Below are positions 7,420 to 21,438 of a stretch of 38,911 bases of DNA, piece by piece. The translations under genes and the position numbers were made by a program. The notes below the pieces were generated by a model. That model was not told where the DNA came from. It searched no databases and saw only the letters and a list, made by a program, of their open reading frames with translations. Source of the DNA: Candidatus Gastranaerophilales bacterium (lineage in GTDB: Bacteria > Cyanobacteriota > Vampirovibrionia > Gastranaerophilales > Gastranaerophilaceae); NCBI GenBank assembly GCA_944323675.1, contig CALUTK010000014.1, forward strand, positions 1-38,911. The letters run 5' to 3'. The number at the start of each line of letters is the position of its first letter. Position 1 is the first letter of the stretch.

Positions 7420-8359
7420 ACTCCCGCTTGTCAGTTTTGTTGTAACTTCTTTTAATTATCAAAATTTTATACAAAAAACTCTTGAAAGCATTATTAATCA
7501 AACTTATGAGAATTTTGAAATTATAATCGTGGATGACTGTTCACGGGATAAATCCGTCGAAATCTGCGAAAATTTTATCGCCTGTAATCAGGATAAAAGA
7601 ATTACGCTCATTCAACACGAAGAAAATAAAGGTCAGCTTGCCGCAATGTTAACCGGCCTGAAAGCCTCAAACGGTCAATTTGTATGTTTTATAGATTCAG
7701 ACGATATCCTTCTGCCGGATTACGCAAAAGCTCATATAAAAGTCCATATGGTCACAAGCGTTGCCTTCACATCCTCTTTAATTGCAGAAATTGATGAGAA
7801 TGATAATATCCACACAATCTATTCTGTTGCATCACCGCAAAAACAAAAACACTTTCGTATAAAAAATCTTGATGAACTTTTTAAATTCGATGTGGAACAT
7901 CCGGATTTTAAACTCGTTAAGGCTCCGTTCGGCGGCTGGTTCTGGTCGCCAAATAGTTCTGCCGTGTTTAGAAAAGCTTCAATTGAAATACTTTTAAATT
8001 ACAAAAATACCGAAAAATGGAAAACCTGTCCTGATAAATTTATGTTTAATTTTGCCCACCTGATAGGAGGCTCCGCAGTTATATATGAACCTCTAACCGC
8101 ACACAGGCGCCACCGGGATAACGCAGGGAATTCCTCCTACATATGCGGGGATACTAAATACAACAATGACAGTGTAACTTTTACTAACATAATTAATAAC
8201 CTGAATGTCCGGCCGGAAACGTTGAAATTTATTTTTGAAAACAGAAAAGATTTTGAAAAAATTTACGGTAAAAAAAACACTGCTAAACTATTTTTAACAG
8301 TGCTTTTTTCGTATATATATTTAATAAAACAATTTATTAGCCGCTCTGGAACAGTGTGA
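7412..8359 (+). CDS. Family 2 glycosyltransferase
   Basis: A GT-A fold glycosyltransferase of 315 residues that would transfer a sugar from a nucleotide-sugar donor; the acceptor is unknown. The start at 7412 (MLKLPLVSFVVTSFN) is chosen because AAGGGGGAA lies just before it; a longer frame starting 14 codons earlier has no ribosome site. The N-terminus shows the family pattern: SFVVTSFNYQNFIQKTLESI, then IIIVDDCSRDKS and the metal-binding CFIDSDDILLPDY. There is no membrane anchor. The 3' end is odd: a strong hairpin plus T-run lies inside the coding sequence about 50 bases before the stop, and the stop overlaps the convergent 587-residue gene by 23 bases. The last 17-20 residues may therefore be a recent extension. 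Confidence 0.88.
   Translation: MLKLPLVSFVVTSFNYQNFIQKTLESIINQTYENFEIIIVDDCSRDKSVEICENFIACNQDKRITLIQHEENKGQLAAMLTGLKASNGQFVCFIDSDDILLPDYAKAHIKVHMVTSVAFTSSLIAEIDENDNIHTIYSVASPQKQKHFRIKNLDELFKFDVEHPDFKLVKAPFGGWFWSPNSSAVFRKASIEILLNYKNTEKWKTCPDKFMFNFAHLIGGSAVIYEPLTAHRRHRDNAGNSSYICGDTKYNNDSVTFTNIINNLNVRPETLKFIFENRKDFEKIYGKKNTAKLFLTVLFSYIYLIKQFISRSGTV
8278..8309. terminator. Bidirectional intrinsic terminator inside the glycosyltransferase 3' end
   Basis: CACTG (8278-8282) with CAGTG (8298-8302), continued by TAAA/TTTA, forms the stem. T6 follows on the plus strand (8304-8309), and an eight-base A run precedes it (U8 on the minus strand). It would serve both the plus-strand glycosyltransferase and the minus-strand 587-residue gene, which ends at 8337. 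Confidence 0.8.
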
Positions 8360-10100
8360 ATGTCTTTTCAACATTCTTTGTAAGCATTTGTTTGACGCTG
8401 TCATATTCAGTTGTGAGGGAAGAAATTTCAAGGTCAAGATTTTTCATATCAAGATCAATTTGTTCTTCTTTATAATTAATCTTATTCTTTTTCTGAGTGA
8501 AGGCAAGTTCGGCCTGAGTAACCGCATCCTCATCAGTTGCTTCCATAATATAAGCGCCTGCGTTATATCTATCCTGATAATAGTATCCGTCCTGGTTAAT
8601 TCCGGTTATGAATAACTGTCCGTTTTTCAGTGCATTATCAAGGTATTCTTTGTCGTCAATATAGATATTTTCATACCATCCGTTCTGACACAAGTTGTTG
8701 AACAATACGCTGTAAAATTCGGATTCATAAATCTGCTGCGTAGACCAGCCGTTGCCGTTGGTATTCTTAATATCATAGTAGAAACCATAATCATCTGTAA
8801 CATAAGAAGATTTATCTGCTTCTTGCCTGATAAAGTAAGTATCATCAAATCCCTGTTGAGCCTGTGCATAGTATGTCAAGAAACATTCAGCAAGACCTGA
8901 CAAGCTTATTGCAGATGTACCATAGTTCTTTCTCTTGGTAGCATCTTTAGTTACCCATCCGTTATAATTATTGGATTCTGTAATACAATCGTTATATGCA
9001 TCGTTAGAATAGTTTCTGCTGCCTAAATCTTTAAAATCGCCGAGTAATCCTACAGTTTCACGAATTGCATAGTTAAATGCCTGAATATTTGTATCATCAT
9101 CTCCGACGTTAATGATTTCCATAAAGCCGCGAATCATCTGGTCTACTAAATCAATAACAAATTTTTCGGATTCAGAAGCATCTTCGTAAAAACCTTCACC
9201 AAGCAGATCTTTAATTCCGTCCTTGCCTCCGCATACGGTATTACCAGCACCTAACAATGATTCAAGAGATTCTGCAAAACTTCTGAAGAACGCCTTGCTA
9301 GGAGCTTCGTCTCCTGTAAAGGCTAATGTATAGTTGCCGTTTAACAGATCTGCAAGATTAAATGAGACCTCACCGTTGTCATTTGTCAACCTGTTGCCGC
9401 CTTTTGTTATATACCAGGAATTTTTATCTAATCCGTTCTTTAAATAAGGTTGTTCACTGGTACAAACATTACTATCTTCAACTTTTGGCATTGAAAAAGT
9501 CAGAACCTCTGCGATTCTTCTTTCTTCGTCGGTTCCTGTTTTAATCTTGTCTGCGGCAAGATCAATATAGTTAATCATATTAGTAATAGTCATTTCATAA
9601 GAATCTGCCTTATCAATCAGTGCACCGCCAATACCTGCAGTTTCCTGAAGTCCGATTTCACGACAGCTTCTTGCAGAAGTTTCGGACATGCCGCCGCAGC
9701 CAACCATTGCAGTTAAGAATGCGTCATACAACTCTCTTTTAGCTTCACCGGAAATATTTGTTCCGCCTTCCGGAATACCTGCCAGCTGAGCCGCACGAGC
9801 CATATCAGGATTCAATGCAATTTTGCCGTCACGACGTGATACCATCCACGGTACGTAATCGTTTATTTCTGAAGGATACATTAATAACTTGTAATCCAGG
9901 TCATATATATAATTGCCTGAACCGTCAGCATCCCATATCAATTTTGTGGTATTTAAAGCCGCTTGATACTCTTCAGTTGCTGATTCCAGTTCACGCGTCA
10001 AAGAAAGCTTCTGCTGAGCCAGCTGCATTGATTGAAATTCACAACTGTTCTTTCTGGAAGTTATGGCTAAAAATCTTGCTTGTGATGCTGCCAATCCCAT
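8337..10100 (-). CDS. Large protein with helical, coiled-coil-like ends (MGLAASQARFL N-terminus), function unknown
   Basis: 587 residues with no domain I can name. The N-terminus (MGLAASQARFLAITSRKNSC) leads into a long heptad-like helix (about 20-50), and the last 60 residues (KKNKINYKEEQIDLDMKNLD and on) are again strongly helical. The middle is rich in Asn, Asp, Tyr and Gly. This helical-ends/globular-middle plan recalls flagellin or hook-associated proteins, where the two ends pair. I recall proteins with this N-terminal signature as multi-copy hypotheticals in Gastranaerophilales, but cannot check that. No classical signal peptide is seen. A ribosome site AAAGGAAAGCGG precedes the ATG. 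It is last in the minus-strand particle block, 112 bases after the small membrane-protein gene, so it may be a host gene rather than a virion gene. Confidence 0.75.
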   Translation of the reverse strand: MGLAASQARFLAITSRKNSCEFQSMQLAQQKLSLTRELESATEEYQAALNTTKLIWDADGSGNYIYDLDYKLLMYPSEINDYVPWMVSRRDGKIALNPDMARAAQLAGIPEGGTNISGEAKRELYDAFLTAMVGCGGMSETSARSCREIGLQETAGIGGALIDKADSYEMTITNMINYIDLAADKIKTGTDEERRIAEVLTFSMPKVEDSNVCTSEQPYLKNGLDKNSWYITKGGNRLTNDNGEVSFNLADLLNGNYTLAFTGDEAPSKAFFRSFAESLESLLGAGNTVCGGKDGIKDLLGEGFYEDASESEKFVIDLVDQMIRGFMEIINVGDDDTNIQAFNYAIRETVGLLGDFKDLGSRNYSNDAYNDCITESNNYNGWVTKDATKRKNYGTSAISLSGLAECFLTYYAQAQQGFDDTYFIRQEADKSSYVTDDYGFYYDIKNTNGNGWSTQQIYESEFYSVLFNNLCQNGWYENIYIDDKEYLDNALKNGQLFITGINQDGYYYQDRYNAGAYIMEATDEDAVTQAELAFTQKKNKINYKEEQIDLDMKNLDLEISSLTTEYDSVKQMLTKNVEKTFTLFQSG

Positions 10101-10212
10101 TTAGTTTCCGCTTTCCTTTCGTTTTTCTTAGTAACATGTACTTCTGGTATTCATGTTTACGGCTCTATATCAGGAAAACTTTAAAAACTTACAGTATTTA
10201 TGTTACAAATGT

Positions 10213-10446
10213 TTACATATTATTTTGGATTACGCAGTCATAAATTTTATCTATTTTATCCTTCATTTCCGCAAAATGTTCTTTTAAATCGTGGAAGCTA
10301 TGAATTGAAACAAAGCGTTCTTCAACATCTTCAATAATTTCGCGGTGTTTTTTCTCCAGCTGCTCCGGAGTAACGACTATTCGCTGCTGGATTAAAAATG
10401 CGACGACTACTATTAATATTGGTGAATATTGTAAAAATTGTTCCAT
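10213..10446 (-). CDS. Small single-span membrane protein, possibly holin- or spanin-like
   Basis: 77 residues. One N-terminal hydrophobic span (YSPILIVVVAFLI, about residues 6-20) is followed by a charged helical tail with coiled-coil character (EQLEKKHREIIEDVEERF and on). The start at 10446 is chosen because AAAGGA lies before it; an upstream extension would run into terL. It lies immediately downstream of terL. A short one-span, coiled-coil-tailed protein beside packaging and lysis genes fits a holin or spanin component, but no family motif confirms it. Confidence 0.65.
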   Translation of the reverse strand: MEQFLQYSPILIVVVAFLIQQRIVVTPEQLEKKHREIIEDVEERFVSIHSFHDLKEHFAEMKDKIDKIYDCVIQNNM

Positions 10447-10499
10447 AAAAAATCCTTTCTTTGATATATGTGGCTGCACAAGCCGCAAATGAATATCTG

Positions 10500-11789
10500 T
10501 CATAACGTAATAGGCCAATAGAAATCCACAAGATATGACGCCGCATCTATCGGATGGGATAGGAATTTCAATTCCTTTGTCTGTTTTATCTGCTGGTAAC
10601 CGGGTATATCTATTTTTGAGGTACCTTCTCTATATCTGAGATTATAAATGTTATACAAAAGCTTTTCGCACTTTTTATCCACATAAAGACAAACTTCTCC
10701 TTCGGCATTTCTGATTTTGGCATTAAATGCGGCAATTCTGTTTTTTATGGGCGGATTATAGGCTTTTATTCTTATATCTGCATCATAGCCATACTGCAAA
10801 AGTTTTTTCTTTATTATTACGTAATTTGTATATTCACTCGTACAGCTTCTGTTATCGCCAGAGGCGTCACCATTTACAATAATTTTACCTTTATGGTTCG
10901 GATATCTTCTGAAAAATTCCTCGCAGGCGCCTGCTGTTGTCGTATTTTCCATTGCAATTTCATCAAAATAAAAAACTTTATCCTCCGTCTTATGCGCAAA
11001 TACCCAGCACATAGGATCAACGTTAAAGTCACACGAAATATGCAAATCCATTTCCGGCTGGTATGCGATATCTTTTACATTTTCATCTGTAAACCCTTTT
11101 ATTACAAGATTATTATTGATTTCTCCATTTTGTGCAAGAACAAAAATCCTGTAATATTCTTCGTCGTAGATTTTTTTAAGTTCGTCGCAAAAGCCTTCCG
11201 GCAGATATATATTCTGGGTTGTCGGGGCTGAAATAAGACGGTAGTTGGGGGGAGGATTATCCAGAAAAGTCTTATATATCCAACCTCTATGAAATTCCGG
11301 ATTTGTATGCCCGAAAATTCTGTAGGTAAAATTTTTCCATGATTTTTTTATCCTCTGACGCATCCTCGAAAGAAGCACCTTAAAAGTTTCATACGGAACT
11401 TCAGACATTTCTTCAATTTCCACAAAACCGAGGTTGAGAGATTTAAGCTTATTCGGTTCGTCAAAATGTCTGAAAAGAATTTCCGAGCCGTTTTGAAAAG
11501 TCATTTTTTGTAAAGATGATGACCATTCGTAATCAACACCTTCAACAAACCCTATATTATCCAAATGTTCAAAATACGATTGGAGAGTGGTATCGCGGAC
11601 CAGAGTGTAAGTTTGCGCACCGACTAAACCTCTCACACCCGGATATTTAAGAGCGAGCAAAATTCCAAGAAGCGACCCTGCAAAGGTTTTTCCGGAACCA
11701 TACCCGCCCTGATATACAGCAACGTCTAGCGTATAACTATGCGGAATCTCCAAAAATTCCCGCTGAGACTTCAATAACTTATATTCCAT
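10500..11789 (-). CDS. Phage terminase large subunit
   Basis: The DNA-packaging motor and nuclease that pumps and cuts DNA at the portal. The 429-residue product has an ATPase with Walker A YGSGKT (residues 30-35), Walker B GFVEIEEMS (about 122-130) and a coupling motif near GHTNPEF (161-167). The RNase H-like nuclease carries acidic residues in SCDFNVDP (Asp255), VNGDASGD (Asp309) and HPIDAASYLVD near the C-terminus. All expected catalytic acids appear present, so the enzyme looks intact. The gene follows the portal gene after a 230-base gap containing hairpins, and precedes a small membrane-protein gene. In most phages TerL precedes portal; here it follows. Confidence 0.93.
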   Translation of the reverse strand: MEYKLLKSQREFLEIPHSYTLDVAVYQGGYGSGKTFAGSLLGILLALKYPGVRGLVGAQTYTLVRDTTLQSYFEHLDNIGFVEGVDYEWSSSLQKMTFQNGSEILFRHFDEPNKLKSLNLGFVEIEEMSEVPYETFKVLLSRMRQRIKKSWKNFTYRIFGHTNPEFHRGWIYKTFLDNPPPNYRLISAPTTQNIYLPEGFCDELKKIYDEEYYRIFVLAQNGEINNNLVIKGFTDENVKDIAYQPEMDLHISCDFNVDPMCWVFAHKTEDKVFYFDEIAMENTTTAGACEEFFRRYPNHKGKIIVNGDASGDNRSCTSEYTNYVIIKKKLLQYGYDADIRIKAYNPPIKNRIAAFNAKIRNAEGEVCLYVDKKCEKLLYNIYNLRYREGTSKIDIPGYQQIKQTKELKFLSHPIDAASYLVDFYWPITL

Positions 11790-11862
11790 ATTTTTAATCT
11801 TTTCCTAATCCTGCCCGATATTCTTGTACTGCACTGCAATACAGACTCGTTTCATAATGAAA

Positions 11863-11884
11863 AAGTCATTCCGAAGAATGACTT
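11863..11884 (-). terminator. Intrinsic terminator between portal and terL
   Basis: AAGTCATT (11863-11870) and AATGACTT (11877-11884) form an 8-bp stem with a CTTCGG-like tetraloop region on the minus strand, followed by U5. It could reduce read-through from the portal gene into terL, in which case terL needs its own promoter in the 70 bases that follow. Confidence 0.75.
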
Positions 11885-11973
11885 ATAGATTGGATTTTCG
11901 CATTTTTTGATTATACAACAAAAGATTCTGATAATTAAATAGCCATAAGGCTATAAATTTTATTCAAGGGAAA

Positions 11974-12012
11974 GTGCCGCAAAATAAGGAGGAAAAAGAG
12001 GGAATGCGGCAC
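11974..12012 (-). other. Hairpin just after the portal stop codon
   Basis: GTGCCGCA (11974-11981) and TGCGGCAC (12005-12012) make a perfect 8-bp GC-rich stem with a 23-base loop, eight bases beyond the portal stop. There is no U-tract on the minus strand, so it may be an mRNA stabiliser. A second small palindrome (AGCC/GGCT at 11941-11952) lies just downstream. Confidence 0.55.
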
Positions 12013-12019
12013 AGAAAAA

Positions 12020-13672
12020 CTAATTACCCGTATCTTTCAGAAAATTATTGGCGTTTTCGATTCCGTACTGTTCAAGTGCAAATTTGAAGCATTCCAGCCA
12101 GTCAACCTGCTCTGCTACACTCTGTACTTCCGCAAAAGATTTGACAACTTCAAAAAGTTCCTTCAGTCTTGTTTTTCTCTCAAAGCTTGCCTTTCTGTCT
12201 CCATAGCGGTATATATAATTTGAATTTCTGACATCATCACTAATTCTGTCAAAAACATATTTGCCGTGATCTTCTATTCTGATAAGTTCATCACCGAATT
12301 TAAAGTTTGCGATAATTTCGGCGGTTTTTTCAACCATAGGGATAATAATTTTGCGGTTAATTGCATCAAGCATCATATTAAGCCGCGCTTCCTGGCCGCT
12401 TACCGAATAATTCAATTCTGTTGCGGTCCGCTGAACATCCTGTAAATTTCCAGCCATATTTTTGAAAATTCCGGTTGCACTTTCAGTTGTCGCTTTAAAA
12501 TAATTAAGAAAATCCCATCCCTGCATAGCTTTATCAAAACTTATCGGGGTTGGTGCTGTCGGCATTAAGGCTGCATCATATTCAATAATCTTGCCCGGCC
12601 TTACATCCTGCTGGCCTTTAAAACAGCCTTTCGGCGCAAGGTACGGCGGATTAATCATCAAGGCAAGCGCATCAATTTGTTTATTCAAAATGGTTGATGA
12701 AACATTATTCAAGACAAGCGCCACTTTTAAAGGAGAAATTCCTCTGCCTGTTACTGGACTTTCAATTATATTTGCGTGAATAAACGGGTTTATAACAAAT
12801 GGATTTGCTTCAAATCTTATAATTTCCCGTCTGCCGGCAACAGTTACAAGGCGATTTCTTAAAATTTTACCGTCCGAAAGTTCTATATCGCCCCAGAATT
12901 CCAGAATCTCAAGTTTATTTTCGTCAATTCCTTTTTCATCGTTCCTGTTCTTTTTCTTTGCCACCACTCCTTTCAGTTTTTCCAGTTTTTCTTTATTCAA
13001 GAGGTTGTTTGATTTATCGCAGAATATTTCGTCAATAGTTGCATAGGTTCTATAGATTTTTGCACAACTGTCCCACTTATCGCGGTTTGATTTATCAAAC
13101 ACAAAATCTTCAGCTTTTATGAATTTAACCCTTGCGTTGTCGTAAACGACTTTATCTTCCAGCACAAAAGTTTTGCCGTCGGGGTTTTTCATATCTTCTT
13201 CAATTGTTTTTGCGCGGCGGGTTTGTTTTATAACGGTTTCCCAGCCGATAAAAAGAGTGCATTCGCCGGTTTCAACAATACTATCAATAACTTTTTCCAA
13301 TTCGTTTTCAATATTCATCTGTTCAAAAGTGTTGACAAGCATGGCTTTTTGTTTATTGGCGTAAGCTTGAGTCTGCGGGGTTGTTCCGGAGACATCGAAC
13401 ATGGCATCCGGATGGGAGTATAAATTTTCGCTTATGTGGGATTTTAAGGTTTGTGCAAGTTCGTAGATATCCGGAAGCTCTATTTTACTCCCCCAGCCGT
13501 TAACGTTCTGGCTTGCGGGGTTATATATTGCATCCCGAACAAGTTTTATATCCGTAAGCTGCTGTATACGGTAATCTTCAAACCTGTCATATTTTTCAGA
13601 AATTTCATTAACCAGAAGAATTTCATCCTCCGGCTTTATCTCGAGTGTTAAATCATCATTAGTTATTTCCAT
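12020..13672 (-). CDS. Phage portal protein (podovirus-like)
   Basis: The dodecameric ring at one capsid vertex through which DNA passes and to which the tail attaches. The 550-residue product has the usual order: an acidic N-terminal region, a wing domain with IVETGECTLFIGWE (around 135-148), a crown/wing segment with VFDKSNRDKW, a stem/clip segment with ESPVTGRGISPLKVALVLNN (around 300-320) and a C-terminal helical region with Gln-rich VQRTATELNYSVSGQEA. This pattern matches portals of short-tailed phages. The gene follows a 380-base repeat-filled gap after the GNAT gene. A ribosome site AAAGG lies about nine bases before the ATG. It appears intact. Confidence 0.88.
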   Translation of the reverse strand: MEITNDDLTLEIKPEDEILLVNEISEKYDRFEDYRIQQLTDIKLVRDAIYNPASQNVNGWGSKIELPDIYELAQTLKSHISENLYSHPDAMFDVSGTTPQTQAYANKQKAMLVNTFEQMNIENELEKVIDSIVETGECTLFIGWETVIKQTRRAKTIEEDMKNPDGKTFVLEDKVVYDNARVKFIKAEDFVFDKSNRDKWDSCAKIYRTYATIDEIFCDKSNNLLNKEKLEKLKGVVAKKKNRNDEKGIDENKLEILEFWGDIELSDGKILRNRLVTVAGRREIIRFEANPFVINPFIHANIIESPVTGRGISPLKVALVLNNVSSTILNKQIDALALMINPPYLAPKGCFKGQQDVRPGKIIEYDAALMPTAPTPISFDKAMQGWDFLNYFKATTESATGIFKNMAGNLQDVQRTATELNYSVSGQEARLNMMLDAINRKIIIPMVEKTAEIIANFKFGDELIRIEDHGKYVFDRISDDVRNSNYIYRYGDRKASFERKTRLKELFEVVKSFAEVQSVAEQVDWLECFKFALEQYGIENANNFLKDTGN

Positions 13673-14053
13673 TTTTTCTAACCTTTCATATTTTTTTCAC
13701 AAAGATAAATAATGTTAATAAAAAATCCAACGCCAATTTAGAAGCCTAGAATTGTAGAATGCCGCGACTTTGCGATTGCGGGTCACAGCCCGCAATGACG
13801 AGTTACCCCTCCACCCTAGCCCTCAGCACAAGGCATACAGAGTCGTAAGACTCGTTACCTCGTCTGCACCCTTTGTATCCCTCAAGGGGGAGAGGGTGAA
13901 TAGTAGACACGGCATTGCGAGCGACAGCGAAGCAATCCAGCCTTTTAACACGTGAAAAGTGAAGTGAATAATTTTTTATTGAACCTTTCACTCCTCACCA
14001 CTCACTATTCACTTAATTGCACTTATTATCCTAAGGGGTTTCCACTTAGTGCC
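13673..14053. repeat. Intergenic repeat mosaic between GNAT and portal genes
   Basis: No credible gene; short frames here encode repeat sequence only. Left to right it holds a palindromic unit GATTGCGGGTCACAGCCCGCAATGACG (about 13775-13799 for its core), a CCCTC-rich unit with a TCGTAAGACTCG palindrome and CCCTCAAGGGGGAGAGGG (about 13805-13897), the unit CATTGCGAGCGACAGCGAAG + CAATCCAG (13913-13940), and a degenerate TTCACTCCTCACC-type run to 14015. The same modules recur near 15720, 21700-22230, 28130-28880 and 35600-35780. It interrupts the particle operon without disrupting any gene. Confidence 0.75.
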
Positions 14054-14575
14054 TTACAGTGCATCGATCAGAGAATAAACAACAATATCCTGAGGTTTTC
14101 CGCCGCGCATTGTCTCTGACTTAAGCCGCGCTTCTTTTATAAATCCGCATCTGTTTAAAAGACTTACAATCCTGAAATTCTCCGGATAAATAAGCGCTTT
14201 AACTTTTTTAAGCCCGAGGTTTTGAAAACAGTAATTAAAAAATACAATCGCAGCATAATAAGTAAAAGAACCCCAAAACTTTTTATCAAAACAGGTCGTA
14301 ACCTCTGCGCAATGAAGTTTTTCAGAATTCCCCGTAAATTTTTCAAGATAAACAAATCCCGCCGCCTCATCGTCAGAAAATATTACCCAGAAATAGGGCG
14401 AAGCTTCTTCCACTAAATCAAGGAAATAATCGTAGAAATTCCGCCCGTCAAGTGCAAAATCGTCCGCTAAAAATTTCTTATACCGGCGGTAGAGAAACAT
14501 CATCTGCGGAATATATTCCGTATTTTTGTAATAATTATTTTTGCGGTCTACAATAAGCTGTCTAAATTTCAACAT
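14054..14575 (-). CDS. GNAT family N-acetyltransferase
   Basis: 173 residues with the GNAT fold: a beta-alpha core where TTCFDKKFWGSFTYYAAIVF precedes the acetyl-CoA pocket region, then the characteristic KKVKALIYPENFRIVSLLNR + CGFIKEARL (beta5-alpha4-beta6) near the C-terminus. Substrate unknown. GNAT genes are found among the head and packaging genes of several podoviruses. The start overlaps the preceding small gene by 14 bases (ATGTTGAAATTTAG), so translation is coupled and the enzyme belongs to the particle operon. Confidence 0.85.
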   Translation of the reverse strand: MLKFRQLIVDRKNNYYKNTEYIPQMMFLYRRYKKFLADDFALDGRNFYDYFLDLVEEASPYFWVIFSDDEAAGFVYLEKFTGNSEKLHCAEVTTCFDKKFWGSFTYYAAIVFFNYCFQNLGLKKVKALIYPENFRIVSLLNRCGFIKEARLKSETMRGGKPQDIVVYSLIDAL

Positions 14576-14924
14576 CTATCTTCTCAAACTTTACATATGC
14601 GTCATCGGTTGTGAATGAGCCGAGTTCACCTTTCAGTATTTTTTCTCTTACAGAATTTTGAATACCTAGCATTGCCTCAGCCTGAACTCCGTTCACAAAT
14701 GTTTCAGACTTATTATTTCTGTTGAATACTCTAAATACCGAATATTTTGAAAAAATTAAATTCTTCGGAACTTTTGAAATATCTGTTATGGTTTTTCGTT
14801 TGTGTTTTTTATTTGCATTGTTAAGTGCAGTTTTAAATTCTTTTTCAATTTTCATCTTTATAAGATCGTCTAAAGACGCGTTGGTTAATAATATTTGTTC
14901 AATATCTTCTTCTTTTTCTTTCAT
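14562..14924 (-). CDS. Small hypothetical protein of the particle operon
   Basis: 120 residues, charged and probably soluble. An acidic helical N-terminus (MKEKEEDIEQILL) leads to a basic centre (NANKKHKRKTITDISKVP) and a C-terminal part with NGVQAEAMLGIQNSVREKIL. No family is recognised. It begins with a good AGAAAGGA ribosome site and overlaps the GNAT gene by 14 bases. Its place between terS and GNAT suggests a virion or packaging accessory; nothing in the sequence shows a specific job. Confidence 0.72.
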   Translation of the reverse strand: MKEKEEDIEQILLTNASLDDLIKMKIEKEFKTALNNANKKHKRKTITDISKVPKNLIFSKYSVFRVFNRNNKSETFVNGVQAEAMLGIQNSVREKILKGELGSFTTDDAYVKFEKIDVEI

Positions 14925-14960
14925 AGTTTTCCTTTCTGTTTAACTATATAATCTGCCTGG

Positions 14961-15039
14961 AAACTTTTGCTTATTTGTTTTCGAAACGATAGCGGGAGCA
15001 GGGCGGAAGCGTGTTGAGAAAATAAATAAGCAAAGGTTT
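14961..15039. repeat. 21-bp imperfect inverted repeat in the terS downstream gap
   Basis: The left arm AAACTTTTGCTTATTTGTTTT (14961-14981) pairs with AAAATAAATAAGCAAAGGTTT (15019-15039), with only two mismatches or wobbles, around a 37-base GC-rich centre. It lies between the terS stop and the next gene on the minus strand, so it would be an extended hairpin in the operon mRNA. It might also be a tiny mobile element. No U-tract follows. Confidence 0.65.
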
Positions 15040-15072
15040 GAACACAATAGTAAGGTAGCCCGTTTATAACGT

Positions 15073-15504
15073 TTAAATTTTACTGTCATCAAGATTTGAT
15101 ATAGTAATAATTTTTGCAGGCTTATAACCTTCTTCAAGCTTTGAATTAAACCCGAGGTATTTGCATAAGCTTTCTAGTGCTTTCAGGGCGGCTGATGTAT
15201 CACGGAGTTTTCTTTTGCCTGTAAAATTTCCCTCCTTATCCGTAATATCTTCTTCTTCCAGCGAAAATTCTGCTATTTTAAGAAGTTTCTGGATAACATA
15301 GCCTTTTTCCACGCGCAGAGATTTTATATGGGCATTAAGACGGATTTTCATTTCTTTGATAATCAACTCATCCGCAAGAAGCCTTTCCGCCGTATCTTTT
15401 AAATTTTTGGATTTATATCCTGCATTACGGGCTGCAGCTTCGCCGTCTACGGTTTTTATATATTCGTCAATAAATGTTTTTTGTTGCTGGGTTAATCGTT
15501 TCAT
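15073..15504 (-). CDS. Phage terminase small subunit
   Basis: The DNA-recognition subunit of the packaging terminase. The 143-residue product matches the Terminase_2 pattern: LTQQQKTFIDEYIKTVDGEA at the N-terminus, an HTH with AARNAGYKSKNLKDTAERLL (about residues 23-42), a central oligomerisation helix and the typical C-terminal RDTSAALKALESLCKYLGFN. No clear Shine-Dalgarno precedes the ATG; a TAATAAT/TATAAA tract lies directly upstream. It is separated from the adaptor gene by 422 bases that contain a candidate divergent small RNA, and it is not adjacent to terL, which is unusual. Confidence 0.9.
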   Translation of the reverse strand: MKRLTQQQKTFIDEYIKTVDGEAAARNAGYKSKNLKDTAERLLADELIIKEMKIRLNAHIKSLRVEKGYVIQKLLKIAEFSLEEEDITDKEGNFTGKRKLRDTSAALKALESLCKYLGFNSKLEEGYKPAKIITISNLDDSKI

Positions 15505-15536
15505 TGTTTATAATTATTAAGATTTCTTACTAAAAT

Positions 15537-15565
15537 TTGTATTTTTGAGGACTATGTGCTATAAT
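15537..15565 (+). promoter_or_regulatory. Strong plus-strand promoter divergent from terS
   Basis: TTGTAT (15537-15542), a 17-base spacer, then an extended -10 TGC-TATAAT (TATAAT at 15560-15565). The predicted start is about 15571-15573. No plus-strand protein gene lies downstream, and an intrinsic terminator follows within 70 bases. Confidence 0.65.
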
Positions 15566-15570
15566 AAACA

Positions 15571-15638
15571 TGCTATTTATATTTCGGCTAGTGTAAATCT
15601 TAACAGGGGGGAATGAAAAATAACTTCCTGTTTTTTTT
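15571..15638 (+). ncRNA. Candidate small RNA (about 68 nt) inside the particle block
   Basis: Downstream of a near-consensus promoter, the predicted transcript contains a 7-bp hairpin (ATTTATA 15575-15581 with TGTAAAT 15592-15598, loop TTTCGGCTAG). It ends in an intrinsic terminator (AACAGG 15602-15607 with CCTGTT 15627-15632, then T8 to 15638 counting from 15631). It runs opposite to all surrounding genes. A 32-codon frame beginning inside the terminator is not taken as coding. Possible roles are a regulatory RNA or a packaged/immunity RNA; nothing here identifies a target. Confidence 0.55.
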
Positions 15639-15926
15639 GCGGATTTGCACTCTGCAGAACAATTGTATTGAAAGAGTGATGGCAGGGAAATACGTATTTC
15701 TGCGAACGTAAAACGTCATTCCGGAAGCGTAGAAAAACTAATTGAGACGAATGTCGAAATCTTGTTTTTCAAGCTATGCGGAATCGCATTATTTTGGACG
15801 CAACGATTATGCGATTGCGGCTCATAGCCCGCAATGACGTTACAAAAGAAATACACAGCACTATTAAGGTCATACTCAACATATCTGTTAAAACCAAATA
15901 ATTCATATTACGGCAAGAGTGGGGGA
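15639..15926. repeat. Intergenic repeat module near terS
   Basis: No protein gene. About 15716-15842 is one copy of a composite repeat. It starts CGTCATTCCGGAAGCGTAGA, continues through AAGCTATGCGGAATCG and ends GCGATTGCGGCTCATAGCCC + GCAATGACG. A close relative lies at about 28230-28360. The two ends (CGTCATT / AATGACG) are inverted, as in palindromic or MITE-like repeats. Confidence 0.65.
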
Positions 15927-16565
15927 TTAGTGTCTGTGCATCCTTATCTCAGGGGTATAATCAGCATTAATACCTGACTTTGACCGCAAATTTGCTAATG
16001 CATCCCGATACATTGACATCCAGTAACTAAACCTTATGTGCTGCGGATTTCCCTTTAATCTCATACACGCGCCGTATACAAGAACCGGCTCCGCAAACGC
16101 CTCAGGGATTACGGACATATCAGTGTCATTTTCAAATAAAGTTTTTTCAGTTCCGTCGGCACTCTTTACAAAATTAGACGTATAATAATATATTTCTGCA
16201 GTCTGCGCTTTCTCAAACTGTGGAAATAAAAATTTATCATTGAATAATGAAAAAGAATTTGACGGATTTGAATTTGTTAAAAACTTTTCGTAATCCTCAA
16301 TAAATCTATACTTTTTCCCGTCAATAAAAATGGAATCTATTTTACCCTCTACGGAATTAGTTATCTCTGTAACATCCGCCGGAATTGTCAATTCGGTTTT
16401 TCTAAGAAGAAAATTCCAGTTTTCGGAATTGCAAATTTCCGTATTTAAAATATTTAAAATATTTTTAATCTTTAAATGCTCATTCTTTGTCAATTCGCTA
16501 AAAGCATGCACCTGCTTGTAATTGAGTTCAACAAGGCATTTATTTATTAAATCAAAATAATTCAT
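15927..16565 (-). CDS. Putative head-tail adaptor (connector) protein
   Basis: 212 residues, mainly helical at both ends. The N-terminal YFDLINKCLVELNYKQVHAF, a middle with the EITNSVEGKIDSIFIDGKKY beta segment, and the C-terminal FAEPVLVYGACMRLKGNPQH are typical of gp4/gp11-type head-completion adaptors of short-tailed phages. The assignment rests on this general pattern plus position beside scaffold, capsid and packaging genes, so the subfamily is uncertain. AAGGAG lies before the ATG. The gene starts 26 bases beyond an extensive palindrome that separates it from scaffold. Confidence 0.65.
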   Translation of the reverse strand: MNYFDLINKCLVELNYKQVHAFSELTKNEHLKIKNILNILNTEICNSENWNFLLRKTELTIPADVTEITNSVEGKIDSIFIDGKKYRFIEDYEKFLTNSNPSNSFSLFNDKFLFPQFEKAQTAEIYYYTSNFVKSADGTEKTLFENDTDMSVIPEAFAEPVLVYGACMRLKGNPQHIRFSYWMSMYRDALANLRSKSGINADYTPEIRMHRH

Positions 16566-16579
16566 ATCATCTCCTTTTG

Positions 16580-16626
16580 CCGTAACCTCAGGCGGTCTTA
16601 TAGAATAAGACCGCCAAAAATTACGG
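16580..16626. other. Two-tiered palindrome between scaffold and adaptor genes
   Basis: CCGTAA (16580-16585) pairs with TTACGG (16621-16626), and inside it GGCGGTCTTA (16591-16600) pairs with TAAGACCGCC (16606-16615). The two stems are separated by a symmetric 5x5 internal loop, and the terminal loop is five bases. Neither strand has a U-tract after the stem. It may be an RNase III-type processing or stability element in the operon mRNA, or a protein-binding site in DNA. Confidence 0.7.
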
Positions 16627-16639
16627 ATAATTTGCGCAA

Positions 16640-17290
16640 TTATTTAATCAAGCCTTTACGGAGCTGTTCCATAATCGCTTTTTCATACTTTGCAAATTCT
16701 GCACCACTCATTTTGCCGATTTGCTCACGGGTGAAAGCCCTTGTTTTCATATCGTCAAAATTAGAGTTTTGCGCATTTGCACGTAATCTCTGTTTTGCGA
16801 TTTCGTTTTCGTCATTTAATGACTTTTCGTGAGCGGTTTGTTTTAAATACCTTCTGATTGCGCCATCCTCAAGCTTTTCAATCATTTGAGATATTAAGGA
16901 AATTTCTTCCTTATCACCGTCAAAGCCTGAGCGTTTCAGGTAATCTAAGACCTCTGCCCTGCCGTCTTTATTAAAAAATCCGGAATGTTCAGCTTCAAAC
17001 TCTGCAAATGCATCTGATTTCGGCTGAATTTGAGCAACGCCTCTATTCTGGTTGTTCACCATGTCATACGCCTTATTTATTACATAGTTCACTAAATATT
17101 GTCCTTGCGTATTGTCTATAACGCCGCTATCTACAAGCTGTTGAATCTTGCGTATATCGTGTAAGACAATACTTTGTACATCATAACTTAGAGGCGGGTT
17201 TTGTAAACTTCCTGTCTGCTGCGGGATTTGACGATTATCGGCAGAAGATAATCCCCCGTTAATAATATTTTGCATATTTTGATTATTCAT
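16640..17290 (-). CDS. Putative capsid scaffolding protein
   Basis: 216 residues, hydrophilic and almost wholly helical. It has a disordered Asn/Gln-rich N-terminus (MNNQNMQNIINGG), central helices (HDIRKIQQLVDSGVI) and a charged C-terminal helix ending KGLIK; a positively charged helical C-terminus is typical of internal scaffolds that bind coat protein. The segment FAEFEAEHSGFFNKDGRAEV also occurs in phage scaffold-like proteins. The start at 17290 is chosen because GGAG precedes it by six bases, and it overlaps the holin-like gene by eight bases. Function is inferred from character and position next to the capsid gene. Confidence 0.65.
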   Translation of the reverse strand: MNNQNMQNIINGGLSSADNRQIPQQTGSLQNPPLSYDVQSIVLHDIRKIQQLVDSGVIDNTQGQYLVNYVINKAYDMVNNQNRGVAQIQPKSDAFAEFEAEHSGFFNKDGRAEVLDYLKRSGFDGDKEEISLISQMIEKLEDGAIRRYLKQTAHEKSLNDENEIAKQRLRANAQNSNFDDMKTRAFTREQIGKMSGAEFAKYEKAIMEQLRKGLIK

Positions 17291-17543
17291 AAGTTTCTCC
17301 ATGTGTTTTTTGATTCAAGGAATTCATGTAATCAACGGCGAATTCAATTGAATCATCAATAAATCCTGACAAAAGGATTGCAATAAAGCTGCGAAAAATT
17401 GCAGGCACCGGAAGTTTTGAGGTAACGTAGTCAATTGCCATTTTCTTCTTCTCCTGACCTCTGGAACTTCCGAGCGCTTTTTCCGCTATTGCAACCGCAC
17501 TTTGCGCTAACTGTTTAATTGCATCTTTTAAGTGTTTGAACAT
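17283..17543 (-). CDS. Small phage protein, possibly holin-like
   Basis: 86 residues. A helical N-terminus (MFKHLKDAIKQLAQSAVAIA) and a basic stretch (SSRGQEKKKMAIDYV) lead to a hydrophobic segment (PVPAIFRSFIAILLSGFID, about 50-68). The GQEKKKMAIDYV pattern faintly recalls the C-terminal part of LLH-type holins, but a clear N-terminal membrane span is missing, so this is tentative. It has a good AAAGGA ribosome site, follows the capsid terminator and overlaps the scaffold start. It could equally be a minor head protein. Confidence 0.55.
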   Translation of the reverse strand: MFKHLKDAIKQLAQSAVAIAEKALGSSRGQEKKKMAIDYVTSKLPVPAIFRSFIAILLSGFIDDSIEFAVDYMNSLNQKTHGETYE

Positions 17544-17557
17544 ATTTTTCCTTTCTT

Positions 17558-17641
17558 AAAAAAGTACCCTTAAACCGCTCGGGCTAAATCTGCAAAACAC
17601 AGAAAAAGAAAGAGTTTTTACAAAGATTTAAAGGTACTTTT
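17558..17641 (-). terminator. Long-stem terminator after the capsid gene
   Basis: The distant segments AAAGTACC..TTTAAA (about 17627-17641 read on the minus strand) and TTTAAGGGTACTTTTTT (17558-17574) pair over about 14 bp with one mismatch, enclosing a loop of about 50 bases and ending in U6. It lies 18 bases after the capsid stop, so it should end much of the capsid transcript while allowing some read-through to the holin-like and scaffold genes. Confidence 0.65.
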
Positions 17642-17658
17642 CGGGGTTACACAAAGGC

Positions 17659-18582
17659 TTAACCTGTAGGTTCTGTTGCGTCGGTAGGTTCCGTAGGTTC
17701 TGTCGGAGATGTCGGCGCAGAGGTTTCATTAGATTTTACAACCATTTTTGCAAGCGCTTTCGGCTGAACTGTTTTTGCTCCGTACAAATATAAGCCTCTG
17801 ATTAAATCAGAAAAACTGTCTTTATCGCGTAAGCTTTCGATTTTTGCTAATTGGGATGCAAACGTAATAGCATCGTTTGTACCAGCAAGAACATAGTATT
17901 TGCCTGATACATCAGTAAGGTTTGTGCTGACAAGAACATCCATGCCCGCAATTCTTCCGATGGCTCCTTCTCTCAAAGTCTCATCGGCAACGTTATGTGC
18001 GCCGATGAATTCCGAACTTTGCAGCAAGTAAGATTCAATAGTCGGGTTAATCACAACCCAAGGTCGTTTAGCGGCAGATACCGCGTTTGAATTTTTCAAA
18101 CATAATGCAAGTTTTACAAACTGAGAGTAAATTGTTGTTTTATCAAGAGTAATCGGAGAAGAATCAGACCCGACAACATTTGCAGAATCAACGTAAGCAT
18201 GCTGGGATAAAAGGTAAGCGTCCTGAACTTCTTCAATAGCTTTTTTAGCGTTTTCAAGGTGTGCTTCCATAATATCGGTATTAGATTGAACCTGCGCCAC
18301 ATCATTGATTTTGAAAGCAAAGAATTTTTTCTGGTCAATAATCAAATCGGTCGCAGTAGGTTCTAATTCATCATAAGTAATATTACCGCTTCCTACTGTT
18401 GCAACGCTTACGGCGGCAGGTGTAATAATTTTTACCGAATCACCCTGATTTTTAATTTCCCCTTCCCAGTTTCTGTTTACGCACTGAAGCATTACGCATT
18501 CTTTCTGAAGCATGGAATTCAATTTCTGGCTCCAGATTTCAGGAATAAAAGCAGAGTAAGAATTTGATGTGTTTGTGCTCAT
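17659..18582 (-). CDS. Major capsid protein
   Basis: 307 residues forming the head shell, with the HK97-like coat pattern: an N-terminal arm (FIPEIWSQKLNSMLQKECVM), E-loop/P-domain strands (GDSVKIITPAAVSVATV and TYDELEPTATDLIIDQKKFF), a helical spine (DIMEAHLENAKKAIEEVQDA) and an A-domain (PWVVINPTIESYLLQ and GRIAGMDVLVSTNL). The sequence is compact for a podovirus coat. The C-terminus is unusual: about 20 residues of Thr/Pro/Glu repeats (PTSPTEPTEPTDATEPTG) form a likely disordered, possibly surface-exposed tail. A good AGAAAGGA ribosome site is present. The gene is followed by its own long-stem terminator. Confidence 0.9.
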   Translation of the reverse strand: MSTNTSNSYSAFIPEIWSQKLNSMLQKECVMLQCVNRNWEGEIKNQGDSVKIITPAAVSVATVGSGNITYDELEPTATDLIIDQKKFFAFKINDVAQVQSNTDIMEAHLENAKKAIEEVQDAYLLSQHAYVDSANVVGSDSSPITLDKTTIYSQFVKLALCLKNSNAVSAAKRPWVVINPTIESYLLQSSEFIGAHNVADETLREGAIGRIAGMDVLVSTNLTDVSGKYYVLAGTNDAITFASQLAKIESLRDKDSFSDLIRGLYLYGAKTVQPKALAKMVVKSNETSAPTSPTEPTEPTDATEPTG

Positions 18583-18633
18583 AAATTTTTGTCCTTTCTG
18601 TTAGATTTATAATAAAAAGATTTGAGTGGTGCC

Positions 18634-20154
18634 TTAGTCATCGTTATAGATTTCGCGGAACTGAAGTCCGATAATCGCACAGGATTCATCAGCGGCAGAA
18701 CCGCTTATACATAATTGAACGGAATAGTTAGATTCGGAAATTTCGGCTTTTTCAAGAGTATCTGCATTTATAGGCCAGATAGGAATATCTTCATCATCCT
18801 TCGCCCAGTGGCAGGGAAGTGAATCCGGCGTATTATCATCCGCCCACATTAAATGGTCATAGTGCATTGAATAAATTTTTTCGGCATCATCGGGATACTC
18901 GCTGTCATAATCTTTGTACACAGTAAAATCAAAATTATTATCATACGATTCATCAAGAATAAAATAAAATTCATCTATAAGTTTTCTGTGATGGATTGAC
19001 CCGAGCGCGAGAAACGGAGATTTCCACATAAATTTTATCGGTTCTCCGGCGAATGTACTGCCGTAATCTTCCCGGTAGATTTTACCGTCAGAATCCGCAG
19101 CAAGAATGTAATCATTAAACATACAAGCACAGGTGATATTCTGCGGAACAACCCTTTTGTACCACGATTTATTTACATAATCGTTTATCCAAATTTTATG
19201 GAAATAATCATCATCATTGTAAGGCAGAAAATACCATACCTGATTTCTGTTTTCATAATGCAGGCTTATAGCCTCTGACATTCTGACTTTATTAAAACTT
19301 TTGAATTCTTCTGTTATATTTTTTGAAATTTCAGACCCCAATTGTATCTGGTTTAATTCGCCGACCTGCTCAAGCGCAAAAATACCGGTATTGAGAAAGT
19401 ACTGTTTATTTTCAACATTAACAATACTTCTCGGGGAATACGCACCCTTATTTGCAAAAGGCACGATAGCAAAATCATCTTCACTCATACCTGTCAGAAG
19501 ATACACTTCTGACTTTTTATAGATTGCGAGATAATCTTTATAAGTTTTGAGTGCCGTAATTTCATCGGTGTTAGTATAGAAATTTCTGATATAACCAGCA
19601 TCCCCGGTTGTTGTGAAATCATCGTAAGTTCCCAGAGCCGAATAATAAATAACAGCACCCGAAGCGACCCAGACTCGTCCGTTATAAACACAGATAACAG
19701 CACTACAGACAGGTTCTCCGCTGTCGTTTTTTAGATTGCACTCTACAACCTCGTTACTGTCATTATTTTTGATATAAAACAATGTGTCCGATTTACTTGA
19801 AACCAGCACTCCGTCCAAAAATGCGGCAAAAACAGGATTAGAGCCGGTTACAGTTTTATCAAGCTTAGTCAAATCCTGACTCTGGTAATTATAAATATAA
19901 ATTTTACCTGAAATTGTAGTAATAACGAGTTTTAAACGTGTACCGCTGCGCATTTCAAACATTCCTGTTACCGCTTCATTTACAGGAAGTTCAAGAAAAA
20001 GAGTGTTACCATTCTGCTTAATTATGCCGCGGTTTTGTAAAATCTCAACGTTTTCCGAATCTGTCCAGTAAAGTTTTTTGGTATCGCTGCCGAGTTCTGT
20101 TTTGGTTAACGCCTGATTAATACCGCCTGACAGGTTATAGTAGGAAACTTCCAT
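18634..20154 (-). CDS. Phage tail hub / stabilisation protein (P22 gp10-like)
   Basis: 506 residues, nearly all beta, with repeated blade-like units: GMFEMRSGTRLKLVITTISG, VFAAFLDGVLVSSKSDTLFY, AVICVYNGRVWVASGAVIYY and ALKTYKDYLAIYKKSEVYLL. Such a propeller-like pattern beginning with YYNLSGGINQ is typical of the P22 gp10-type tail accessory proteins that cap the portal channel of podoviruses. It supports a short-tailed particle with no tape measure protein. The start has AAGGAG just before it, located within the end of the amidase gene (gap of three bases). Confidence 0.78.
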   Translation of the reverse strand: MEVSYYNLSGGINQALTKTELGSDTKKLYWTDSENVEILQNRGIIKQNGNTLFLELPVNEAVTGMFEMRSGTRLKLVITTISGKIYIYNYQSQDLTKLDKTVTGSNPVFAAFLDGVLVSSKSDTLFYIKNNDSNEVVECNLKNDSGEPVCSAVICVYNGRVWVASGAVIYYSALGTYDDFTTTGDAGYIRNFYTNTDEITALKTYKDYLAIYKKSEVYLLTGMSEDDFAIVPFANKGAYSPRSIVNVENKQYFLNTGIFALEQVGELNQIQLGSEISKNITEEFKSFNKVRMSEAISLHYENRNQVWYFLPYNDDDYFHKIWINDYVNKSWYKRVVPQNITCACMFNDYILAADSDGKIYREDYGSTFAGEPIKFMWKSPFLALGSIHHRKLIDEFYFILDESYDNNFDFTVYKDYDSEYPDDAEKIYSMHYDHLMWADDNTPDSLPCHWAKDDEDIPIWPINADTLEKAEISESNYSVQLCISGSAADESCAIIGLQFREIYNDD

Positions 20155-20157
20155 AGA

Positions 20158-20655
20158 TTATTCTCCTTGTATTTTTTCCTTGTACCACTTGATTTTTGCT
20201 CTGATGAATTTTCCGGCATCAAGTCTATCAACCCACGGATAAGGAGGAATAAATATTATGTCAATCTTTCCTGCACTTGATGTGGATGGATGTTTCAGAC
20301 CGAATTCATAATGGGTCATAATTGTGTTAGGATTAACCGGAATATCGTATTTAATTGACAATTTTGCACATAATTCCATACAGGCCTCAAACTGCTTTTT
20401 AGTGATCGGATAATTCCCGAGGCTTTTCCGGCTCTTAAACCCAGCCATTGCGCACATTGCAACTCCTACAGAGCCGGTGTTTCCTCCGCCGGTATGTGCA
20501 GCATAGAAACCGCTTATACACCGCAGATTATTTTCCGGTTTAAAAATTCCTTCATGGATATTACCGTCTTTATCTACCAAAAAGTGATAACATGTCTTTT
20601 CAAGGGCTGTCGGGTAATATCCGCCGGCAGTCCAATGGATAATTATTCTTTTCAT
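20158..20655 (-). CDS. N-acetylmuramoyl-L-alanine amidase (Amidase_2/PGRP type)
   Basis: A 165-residue zinc amidase that cleaves the peptide from peptidoglycan glycan strands; in this setting it is the likely endolysin or particle lysin. The Amidase_2 pattern is clear: IIIHWTAGGYYPTALEKTCY with His7 as the first zinc ligand, then YHFLVDKDGNIHEG, the segment YAAHTGGGNTGSVGVAMCAM and a second ligand in NTIMTHYEFGLKHP. There is no signal peptide, so it would need a holin for export. It starts 15 bases after the LuxR-type gene with GGAG five bases before the ATG, and abuts the tail gene, so all three share a transcript. Confidence 0.92.
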   Translation of the reverse strand: MKRIIIHWTAGGYYPTALEKTCYHFLVDKDGNIHEGIFKPENNLRCISGFYAAHTGGGNTGSVGVAMCAMAGFKSRKSLGNYPITKKQFEACMELCAKLSIKYDIPVNPNTIMTHYEFGLKHPSTSSAGKIDIIFIPPYPWVDRLDAGKFIRAKIKWYKEKIQGE

Positions 20656-20670
20656 AGCACTCCGAATTTT

Positions 20671-20886
20671 TTATACTTCATGAATGGAAATTAACCATTC
20701 AGGATGATATTTTGCGTATAACAATGCTGCATGGGTTCGGTTTCGTGCATGCATTTTTAAAACAATTTTATCAATGTAATCTCTTACTGTACTGTAAGAA
20801 ATTCTAAGTTTAAGTCCTATCTCTTTATCCGAGAAACCCAATGCTGCCAAAGTTATAACATCAGTTTCCTTTGGTGTTAGTTTCAT
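20671..20886 (-). CDS. Solo LuxR/GerE-type HTH regulator
   Basis: 71 residues consisting of only the GerE/LuxR helix-turn-helix domain: LTPKETDVITLAALGFSDKE, IGLKLRISYSTVRDYIDKIV and LKMHARNRTHAALLYAKYHP. There is no receiver, autoinducer or PAS domain. Such stand-alone domains can be activators of the adjacent operon. It is the first gene after a terminator and sits directly before the amidase-tail-capsid genes, so it probably controls them. A 7-bp inverted repeat lies in its own leader (annotated separately). Confidence 0.9.
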   Translation of the reverse strand: MKLTPKETDVITLAALGFSDKEIGLKLRISYSTVRDYIDKIVLKMHARNRTHAALLYAKYHPEWLISIHEV

Positions 20887-20899
20887 ACCCTCTTCCTCA

Positions 20900-20918
20900 C
20901 TGAAATTACTTATTTCAG
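20900..20918 (-). promoter_or_regulatory. Inverted repeat, possible operator in the LuxR-type gene leader
   Basis: CTGAAAT-AAGTA-ATTTCAG on the minus strand (arms 20900-20906 and 20912-20918) is a perfect 7-bp palindrome 14 bases before the ATG at 20886. A TG-TATTAT -10-like element (minus strand, about 20935-20945) is upstream. The palindrome may bind the LuxR-type protein (autoregulation) or fold in the mRNA leader. The assignment is inferred. Confidence 0.45.
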
Positions 20919-21013
20919 CTATTCCGGTTCTTGATAAAATAATACAAAAAGAATAATCGCCACATGGTTATTTTTTTAATAATAATTCCTAATTAAATTT
21001 TTATTAATAAAAA

Positions 21014-21034
21014 GGGATGAAATAATTTCATCCC
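21014..21034 (-). terminator. Terminator of the zinc-ribbon gene
   Basis: GGGATGAAA (21014-21022) and TTTCATCCC (21026-21034) form a perfect 9-bp stem with a 3-base loop followed by U5 on the minus strand, 18 bases after the stop codon. It makes the LuxR-type operon a separate transcription unit. Confidence 0.88.
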
Positions 21035-21051
21035 GCAGAGAGTAAGATAAT

Positions 21052-21438
21052 TTAAAAGGATGGTAGATTATTCAGATTTTTATTTTCATACAAACCGATT
21101 TTTAAGGTACTAAGATTTGAATAGCATCTTTTTTTAACGCCGAATTCATTGTAATTCAGATAAAATCTGCCTTGACCGAACTTAGGCAGTTGAGGCGGAA
21201 CTTCTTCGTACAAAATAAACTTTTGTACGGATTGGAAAAATTTTTTTGCTTTATTATTAACTTTCCTGACTGTAGAAATCTCGTCATTGAAATCAATTCT
21301 GGTAAGCTGAACAACGAAATGACCGCACACCGGACATTTTTTAAGCACATCAAGTTCACACAGCCGAAAGTTCTCCCGCGGGACAAGACAATAAGACCTT
21401 GTCTTACGCAGGGCGCCGCAGCAATGTATATATCCCAT
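21052..21438 (-). CDS. Cys-rich (zinc-ribbon-like) hypothetical protein
   Basis: 128 residues with a cysteine-rich N-terminal half: an HCC near residue 5 (MGYIHCCGALRKTRSYC), then CELDVLKKCPVCGHFVVQL with a CxxC pair, which should bind zinc. The C-terminal part (RKVNNKAKKFFQSVQKFILY and GQGRFYLNYNEFGVKKRCYS) is basic and could contact nucleic acid. No family is recognised. The ATG at 21438 has GAGG ten bases before it; a GTG two codons upstream (21444) is an alternative. It has its own terminator. The gene's leader contains a long structured RNA ending in a U-tract. Confidence 0.68.
   Translation of the reverse strand: MGYIHCCGALRKTRSYCLVPRENFRLCELDVLKKCPVCGHFVVQLTRIDFNDEISTVRKVNNKAKKFFQSVQKFILYEEVPPQLPKFGQGRFYLNYNEFGVKKRCYSNLSTLKIGLYENKNLNNLPSF

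Follow-up and report, generated by a model that had tools for sequence, protein, structure and literature searches.

Candidatus Gastranaerophilales are gut-dwelling, non-photosynthetic Cyanobacteriota. The stretch of one such genome analysed here (contig CALUTK010000014.1, positions 1 to 38,911; hereafter the 38,911-nt window) carries a block of co-oriented phage genes on its minus strand, a locus of about 13 kb spanning 8337-21444. The gene content, conservation and inheritance of this cassette identify it as a domesticated, vertically inherited locus for a predicted short-tailed, DNA-packaging particle that resembles a gene transfer agent (GTA). At a probability of roughly 55%, we favour a reading in which this inherited phage module was domesticated to build a particle, possibly DNA-carrying, that delivers toxins tagged with a motif of its own scaffolding protein.

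A phage particle locus inherited with its host

The particle genes are co-oriented on the minus strand, where all features below lie, and were recognised by profile matches for most and by the fold of the nozzle, as the first-pass annotation of this sequence had anticipated. The gene for the large terminase subunit TerL (10500..11789) matches Terminase_3 (PF04466, 5e-21) and phrog_2 (6e-35), and its closest NCBIfam family is that of PBSX (TIGR01547, 1e-24, below cut-off). Its ATPase and nuclease motifs are intact: no variation was seen among 17 cassette copies in the Walker A Lys, an acidic Walker B-type motif or the nuclease Asp residues, which bears out the earlier statement that key catalytic residues are preserved. 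The small subunit TerS (15073..15504; PF03592, 4e-15; phrog_51, 3e-19), an SU10-type portal (12020..13672; PF23899, 4e-22; phrog_332, 4e-34) and a major capsid protein (17659..18582) complete the head and packaging functions; the capsid protein has an N4-gp56-like profile (phrog_267, 4e-54; TIGR04387, below cut-off) and matches capsid gp6 of PDB entry 8e16 (4e-30). An AlphaFold2 model of the product of 18634..20154 (predicted local distance difference test score, pLDDT, 78) was compared with solved structures by Foldseek and resembles the podovirus nozzles of Pa223, P22 (gp10) and SU10, with template-modelling (TM) scores of 0.75, 0.65 and 0.59, upholding by fold a previously proposed P22 gp10-like tail protein and suggesting that the particle would be short-tailed.

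The cassette is set among host genes. Profile searches assign one flank to a class II tRNA synthetase, a T2SSE ATPase, QueF, TerC and a glycosyltransferase, and the other to radical SAM, ZIP, RF1, IF-2, TruB and glycine cleavage proteins. In the block and its flanks, profile searches found no integrase or replication genes, and a search for a pair of attachment (att) repeats flanking the block found none, in agreement with the initial description of the element. A larger prophage extending past the block was considered and ruled out, since only host genes are found there.

The same locus recurs widely in related genomes, often with conserved flanks, and is not a peculiarity of one strain. Within the genus, all 13 genomes have an intact, single-copy TerL (87-100% identity), which is present in many other genera as well; one of the 13 holds an extra, divergent phage TerL. 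In a second genus the cassette is found in 44 of 46 species, and a count by hand gave a portal at least 64% identical and free of internal stops in about 147 of the 383 family genomes sampled. The radical-SAM/ZIP flank is common to many genera and the TerC/GT2 flank is found mainly within the genus; in cassette-free genomes, the sequence next to the radical-SAM gene was read at four loci and consists of ordinary host genes with no cassette remnants. Trees of eight cassette genes share 6-10 splits with a host tree built from IF-2 (shuffled-tree mean, 0.13-0.27), and their distances correlate with those of IF-2 at 0.53-0.84, about the level of a flanking host gene, although with a few supported conflicts.

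The genes are also maintained by selection. The ratio of nonsynonymous to synonymous substitution rates (dN/dS) is mostly 0.01-0.2 across the cassette and 0.01-0.05 for TerL, portal and capsid; structural genes are comparable to the flanking host genes, smaller cassette genes lie somewhat higher, and the outlier is a short LuxR gene (0.42, at a dS of 0.045). Core genes are intact in 59-80 loci. Over 63-78 loci, the reading frames of the amidase, nozzle, adaptor, TerS, portal and TerL contain no internal stops. For the capsid, holin, scaffold and GNAT acetyltransferase a small number of matches do, affecting one to four loci per gene; those of the capsid are taken to lie in its variable C-terminal end. 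A GTA-like domesticated particle, one of the options raised at first pass, is thus the one borne out: the locus is fixed and intact in one copy across genera, it evolves under purifying selection, its trees agree with that of the host, and it has no mobility genes. Within 15927-18582, dS of scaffold, holin, adaptor and capsid falls below that of their neighbours for some species pairs; together with some local conflict, this suggests between-species recombination inside the cassette. Comparison of the carbon cost of GTA proteins with that of phage homologues gave no clear difference.

Viral contigs and other loci hold divergent copies of TerL, portal and capsid, at about 40-65% identity. Among the matches listed, no isolated phage record is 60% or more identical to the capsid or TerL, the capsid reaching at most 43% among the best-listed records, and matches in viral collections are mostly short contigs resembling fragments of the same host cassette.

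Scaffold-like tags and their cargo in relatives

The 220-amino-acid (aa) scaffolding protein (16640..17302) has no profile match and is assigned, in keeping with the first-pass call, by its position and its C-terminus. Scaffold-homologous C-termini end capsid-adjoining open reading frames (ORFs) of related phages, in the portal-capsid interval of contig L164 and beside the capsid in L058 and L263. By sequence homology, the scaffold C-terminal motif FTREQIGKMSGAEFAKYEKAIMEQLRKGLIK (16643..16771) recurs as a cargo tag in relatives of this strain. There, extra genes occupy slots of the cassette, chiefly between portal and TerL and between TerL and the small membrane protein c101, and many encode a motif of about 40 aa homologous to the C-terminus of the scaffold. 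The tag is usually C-terminal on the cargo and often tandem (two tags), and tagged proteins often share the tail YTRxDGTEVRGYYRS or WVTINGNHVLI. Their other domains are GH108 muramidase, lipase-like, DUF6973 and PBECR1 nuclease, together with weak matches to LPD3 and transglycosylase-like domains. Tagged cargo genes also lie at dispersed chromosomal loci, genome G004 of the same genus having a run of four. One shared tag joined to varied toxin-type domains is the layout of polymorphic toxins, and it is present in relatives, not in the strain studied here. In genus g9 (L258-L260), a larger related phage-like element holds several tagged lipase and GH108 cargo genes near its portal and scaffold.

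Some neighbours of the cargo genes are candidates for immunity functions. A gene for an LprI lysozyme inhibitor lies upstream of GH108 cargo in six of six cases, all above the Pfam cut-off; among 1849 control ORFs, only 40 adjoin a Cys motif similar to that of LprI. Lipase cargo has a small membrane or signal-bearing neighbour in 6/6 cases and DUF6973 cargo in 8/9, and overall such neighbours accompany 28 of 44 cargo genes versus 472 of 1849 control ORFs (p=2e-7). Tagged cargo was detected in 22 of 28 cassette-positive versus 4 of 21 cassette-negative genomes (Fisher p=5e-5), an uneven comparison in that the former were searched partly with tag model A5 and partly with A6 and the latter with A6 only; with A6 alone, and the remnant of the strain studied here excluded, the counts are 11 of 17 and 4 of 21.

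These observations raise the possibility that the scaffold tag loads antibacterial toxins into the particle, as we infer from the resemblance to fusions made with the scaffold of P22. According to this model, expression would be induced in a subset of cells, perhaps via a 71-aa helix-turn-helix (HTH) protein of the cassette; heads would assemble and fill with DNA; the head, as it assembles, would take up proteins that carry the scaffold C-terminal motif, in the way that P22 heads take up scaffold fusions; and particles would be released through lysis by holin and amidase. The muramidase, lipase and nuclease domains would then be delivered to neighbours, and cells lacking the matching immunity gene would be damaged, so that the particle would serve competition among gut bacteria by injecting toxins and possibly by transferring genes. 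We give even odds to the more specific proposal that the core inherited phage head serves as an inter-bacterial weapon, with changeable toxins loaded by a tag copied from the coat-binding end of the scaffold, matching immunity genes, and release by lysis. If so, it would constitute a capsid-based injection system distinct from the type VI secretion system, from contractile particles and from the MuF toxins of live phages, and it might also be linked to gene transfer. The tag would then be a sequence signature predicting a repertoire of delivered antibacterial proteins and their immunity genes, and whether the particle contains DNA, toxins or both becomes a testable question.

Several points weigh against toxin delivery by such a particle. 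The particle, its packaged DNA, its induction and the toxicity of the cargo are predictions from genes, and binding of the tag to the coat protein is deduced from position. No tailspike or fibre that would account for host recognition was found in the cassette, and in genus g17 (L050, L131, L236) the locus has no nozzle, the capsid following the amidase directly. Tagged cargo was not found in 6 of the 28 cassette-positive genomes, tagged proteins occur in four cassette-negative ones, and PBECR1-type nuclease-like cargo has an obvious adjoining partner gene in just one of eight cases; the cargo-partner and co-occurrence statistics, moreover, take no account of phylogenetic relatedness. Finally, in the genome from which the window comes, the scaffold is the sole intact tag-bearing protein and there is no intact tagged cargo. 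Its contig C7 retains a 137-aa remnant of a lipase-type cargo (L317:1708-2121), with start and tail kept and the middle deleted, adjoining the same 121-aa membrane protein that adjoins intact lipase cargo in relatives; the deletion could alternatively be an assembly error.

Alternative explanations and known systems

The alternative with the most in its favour, which we nevertheless judge unlikely, is a classical GTA, whose particles would carry random pieces of host DNA to relatives, the tagged enzymes being accessories, e.g. for entry of DNA through wall and membrane. The strong purifying selection on TerS, TerL and portal, with catalytic residues intact, would be expected of such an agent, as would a fixed, vertically inherited locus that co-diversifies with its host and has no mobility genes; peptidoglycan hydrolases and lipases could help ejection, and the strain studied here retains its particle genes without intact cargo. 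However, the nuclease-type cargo (PBECR1), and the way cargo is specifically paired with an inhibitor or a membrane partner, look more like toxin-immunity arrangements than entry factors. Of the six criteria published for the GTAs among viriforms such as RcGTA, BaGTA and BhGTA (PMC9662315), three are found here, namely caudoviricete-derived particle proteins, an endogenised genome, and mostly vertical inheritance with co-diversification. The other three, namely mostly random host DNA in the particle, a head that cannot hold the entire GTA genome, and transfer of DNA to other cells, are experimental, and the locus is therefore GTA-like and not a confirmed GTA. It shares with GTAs particle genes that have become endogenous to the host, co-diversification, terminase and lysis genes and the lack of an integrase, but it differs in its podovirus-type nozzle, SU10-type portal, permuted gene order, scaffold-tagged enzyme cargo and host of cyanobacterial lineage. 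No literature on GTAs or such particles in Gastranaerophilales was found in a search outside of which lay many subscription journals and all preprints.

PBSX of Bacillus subtilis, a bacterium of another phylum, is a defective prophage that forms a long-tailed particle. The PBSX-like terminase and the chromosomally fixed particle genes of the cassette recall it, and a killer particle of this kind, in which packaged DNA has no genetic role and the killing of competitors is the selected function, would accord with the closest NCBIfam family of TerL (below cut-off, as noted) and with cargo resembling antibacterial effectors accompanied by immunity genes. Sequence hardly tells this apart from delivery of scaffold-tagged toxins by a domesticated particle; several cassette-positive genomes without detected cargo, however, fit poorly with it, and we regard a PBSX-like killer as improbable.

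The first-pass annotation had further entertained a satellite and a decayed prophage, and both are contradicted. A satellite (similar to a phage-inducible chromosomal island) or other helper-dependent element travelling with other phages would suit the small size, the lack of replication genes and the existence of related phages in the same order, but the cassette has no integrase or att pair, occupies the same site in many species rather than varied sites, is single-copy and has trees that follow the host, and in cassette-free genomes the conserved flank gene adjoins ordinary host genes; such an element is very improbable. A decaying prophage remnant, suggested by the short length and the lack of integration, replication and tailspike genes, is hardly credible given the low dN/dS and the absence of internal stops from six genes noted above.

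For the delivery of tagged toxins by a domesticated particle, the nearest known capsid-carried toxins are the MuF polymorphic toxins of temperate phages, in which the toxin is joined to a head/packaging-module domain (PMC5576092); the carrier domain differs. Both these and Bxa of Bacteroides (PMC11699363) are phage-borne polymorphic toxins with immunity proteins in gut bacteria, features that the tagged cargo and its candidate immunity partners would share. Here, by contrast, the carrier is a short scaffold-type motif, the vehicle comes from a domesticated locus and not from a live temperate phage, and the cargo genes are dispersed. Pfam scans of the tagged cargo found no MuF domain. Accessory proteins with a CxxCxxLDG...PHPNCxC motif, which only resemble MuF-type head proteins, are found in the adaptor-TerS gap of L149 and in the tail-capsid gap of L221 and L220. 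Enzymes fused to the scaffold C-terminus have been engineered to load into the P22 capsid (PMC11626933), whereas the natural counterpart proposed here is read from genes; if true, it would be a natural instance of the trick that engineers use. SU10 and P22-like podoviruses share with the cassette the similarity of portal, adaptor and nozzle, but the cassette differs in having no fibres or tailspike found and no replication or integration genes. The proposed particle, if real, would bring a large gut lineage, akin to cyanobacteria and for the most part uncultured, within the range of domesticated phage particles, here with a podovirus-type architecture.

Further genes and gene order of the cassette

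In the direction of transcription the genes are the 130-aa gene, HTH, amidase, nozzle, capsid, holin, scaffold, adaptor, TerS, c120, GNAT, portal, TerL, c101 and the 587-aa gene. This order is identical across 80 GTDB loci wherever the genes are present; in genera g36 and g61 the cassette is divergent and its order differs slightly. Genes of the related phage contig L164 follow the usual order, TerL-portal-scaffold-capsid-c120-adaptor, and the cassette order is consequently a rearrangement. The first-pass annotation described a reversed order with all genes on one strand; set against L164, the arrangement is permuted and not cleanly reversed.

At the head lies a conserved 130-aa gene (21052..21444; 52-86% identity among cassette loci), distant homologues of which (24-29%) adjoin TerL in the related phage loci L056-L058 and L164. 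Downstream of it is the LuxR/GerE-type HTH gene (71 aa; 20671..20886; PF00196, 5e-12), a candidate operon regulator present in 76 of 80 GTDB loci immediately upstream of the amidase. The LuxR-type gene that the first-pass annotation placed at the head of the cassette is conserved and near the operon head, but the 130-aa gene precedes it. Predicted lysis functions are an N-acetylmuramoyl-L-alanine amidase (20158..20655; PF01510, 2e-15; phrog_5867, 1e-31) and a holin of the LLH superfamily (17283..17543; phrog_6918, 2e-8; PF09682, 1e-4, just under cut-off). A membrane protein resembling a spanin or holin by context, c101 (10213..10518), is kept beside TerL in cassettes and found also in related phages. 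The adaptor call made at first pass is retained on weak profile matches, as a putative SU10-like head-tail adaptor (15927..16565; PF24175, 3e-5, just under cut-off; tail phrog_6013, 1.5e-7). A conserved, virion-associated 120-aa protein, c120 (14562..14924), lies in the capsid-adaptor interval of the related phages L163 and L164. A PADLOC scan for defence systems returned nothing meaningful, c120 giving only a weak AbiEii match. The GNAT acetyltransferase gene (14054..14575; PF13302, 1e-10) has homologues adjoining the nozzle in related phages (L163, L166, L259) and is absent from some genera.

The last gene (8337..10100) encodes a coiled-coil/globular protein of 587 aa whose place in the particle is uncertain. 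At least 16 species have an orthologue 3' of the cassette, and about ten paralogues lie elsewhere in the same genome. A structure model (pLDDT 84) gave no match in a fold search, and a role as tail fibre was rejected on this result together with the host paralogue family; the gene may thus not be a particle component. Among the paralogues, the N-terminus MGLAASQARFL and a C-terminal helix are conserved and the middle is variable, a flagellin-like layout. Gaps of the cassette and its upstream flank contain interspersed repeats between genes, such as CAATGACG / GCTGGATTGCTTC elements, at 13765-14012, 15804-15839 and 21658-22232.

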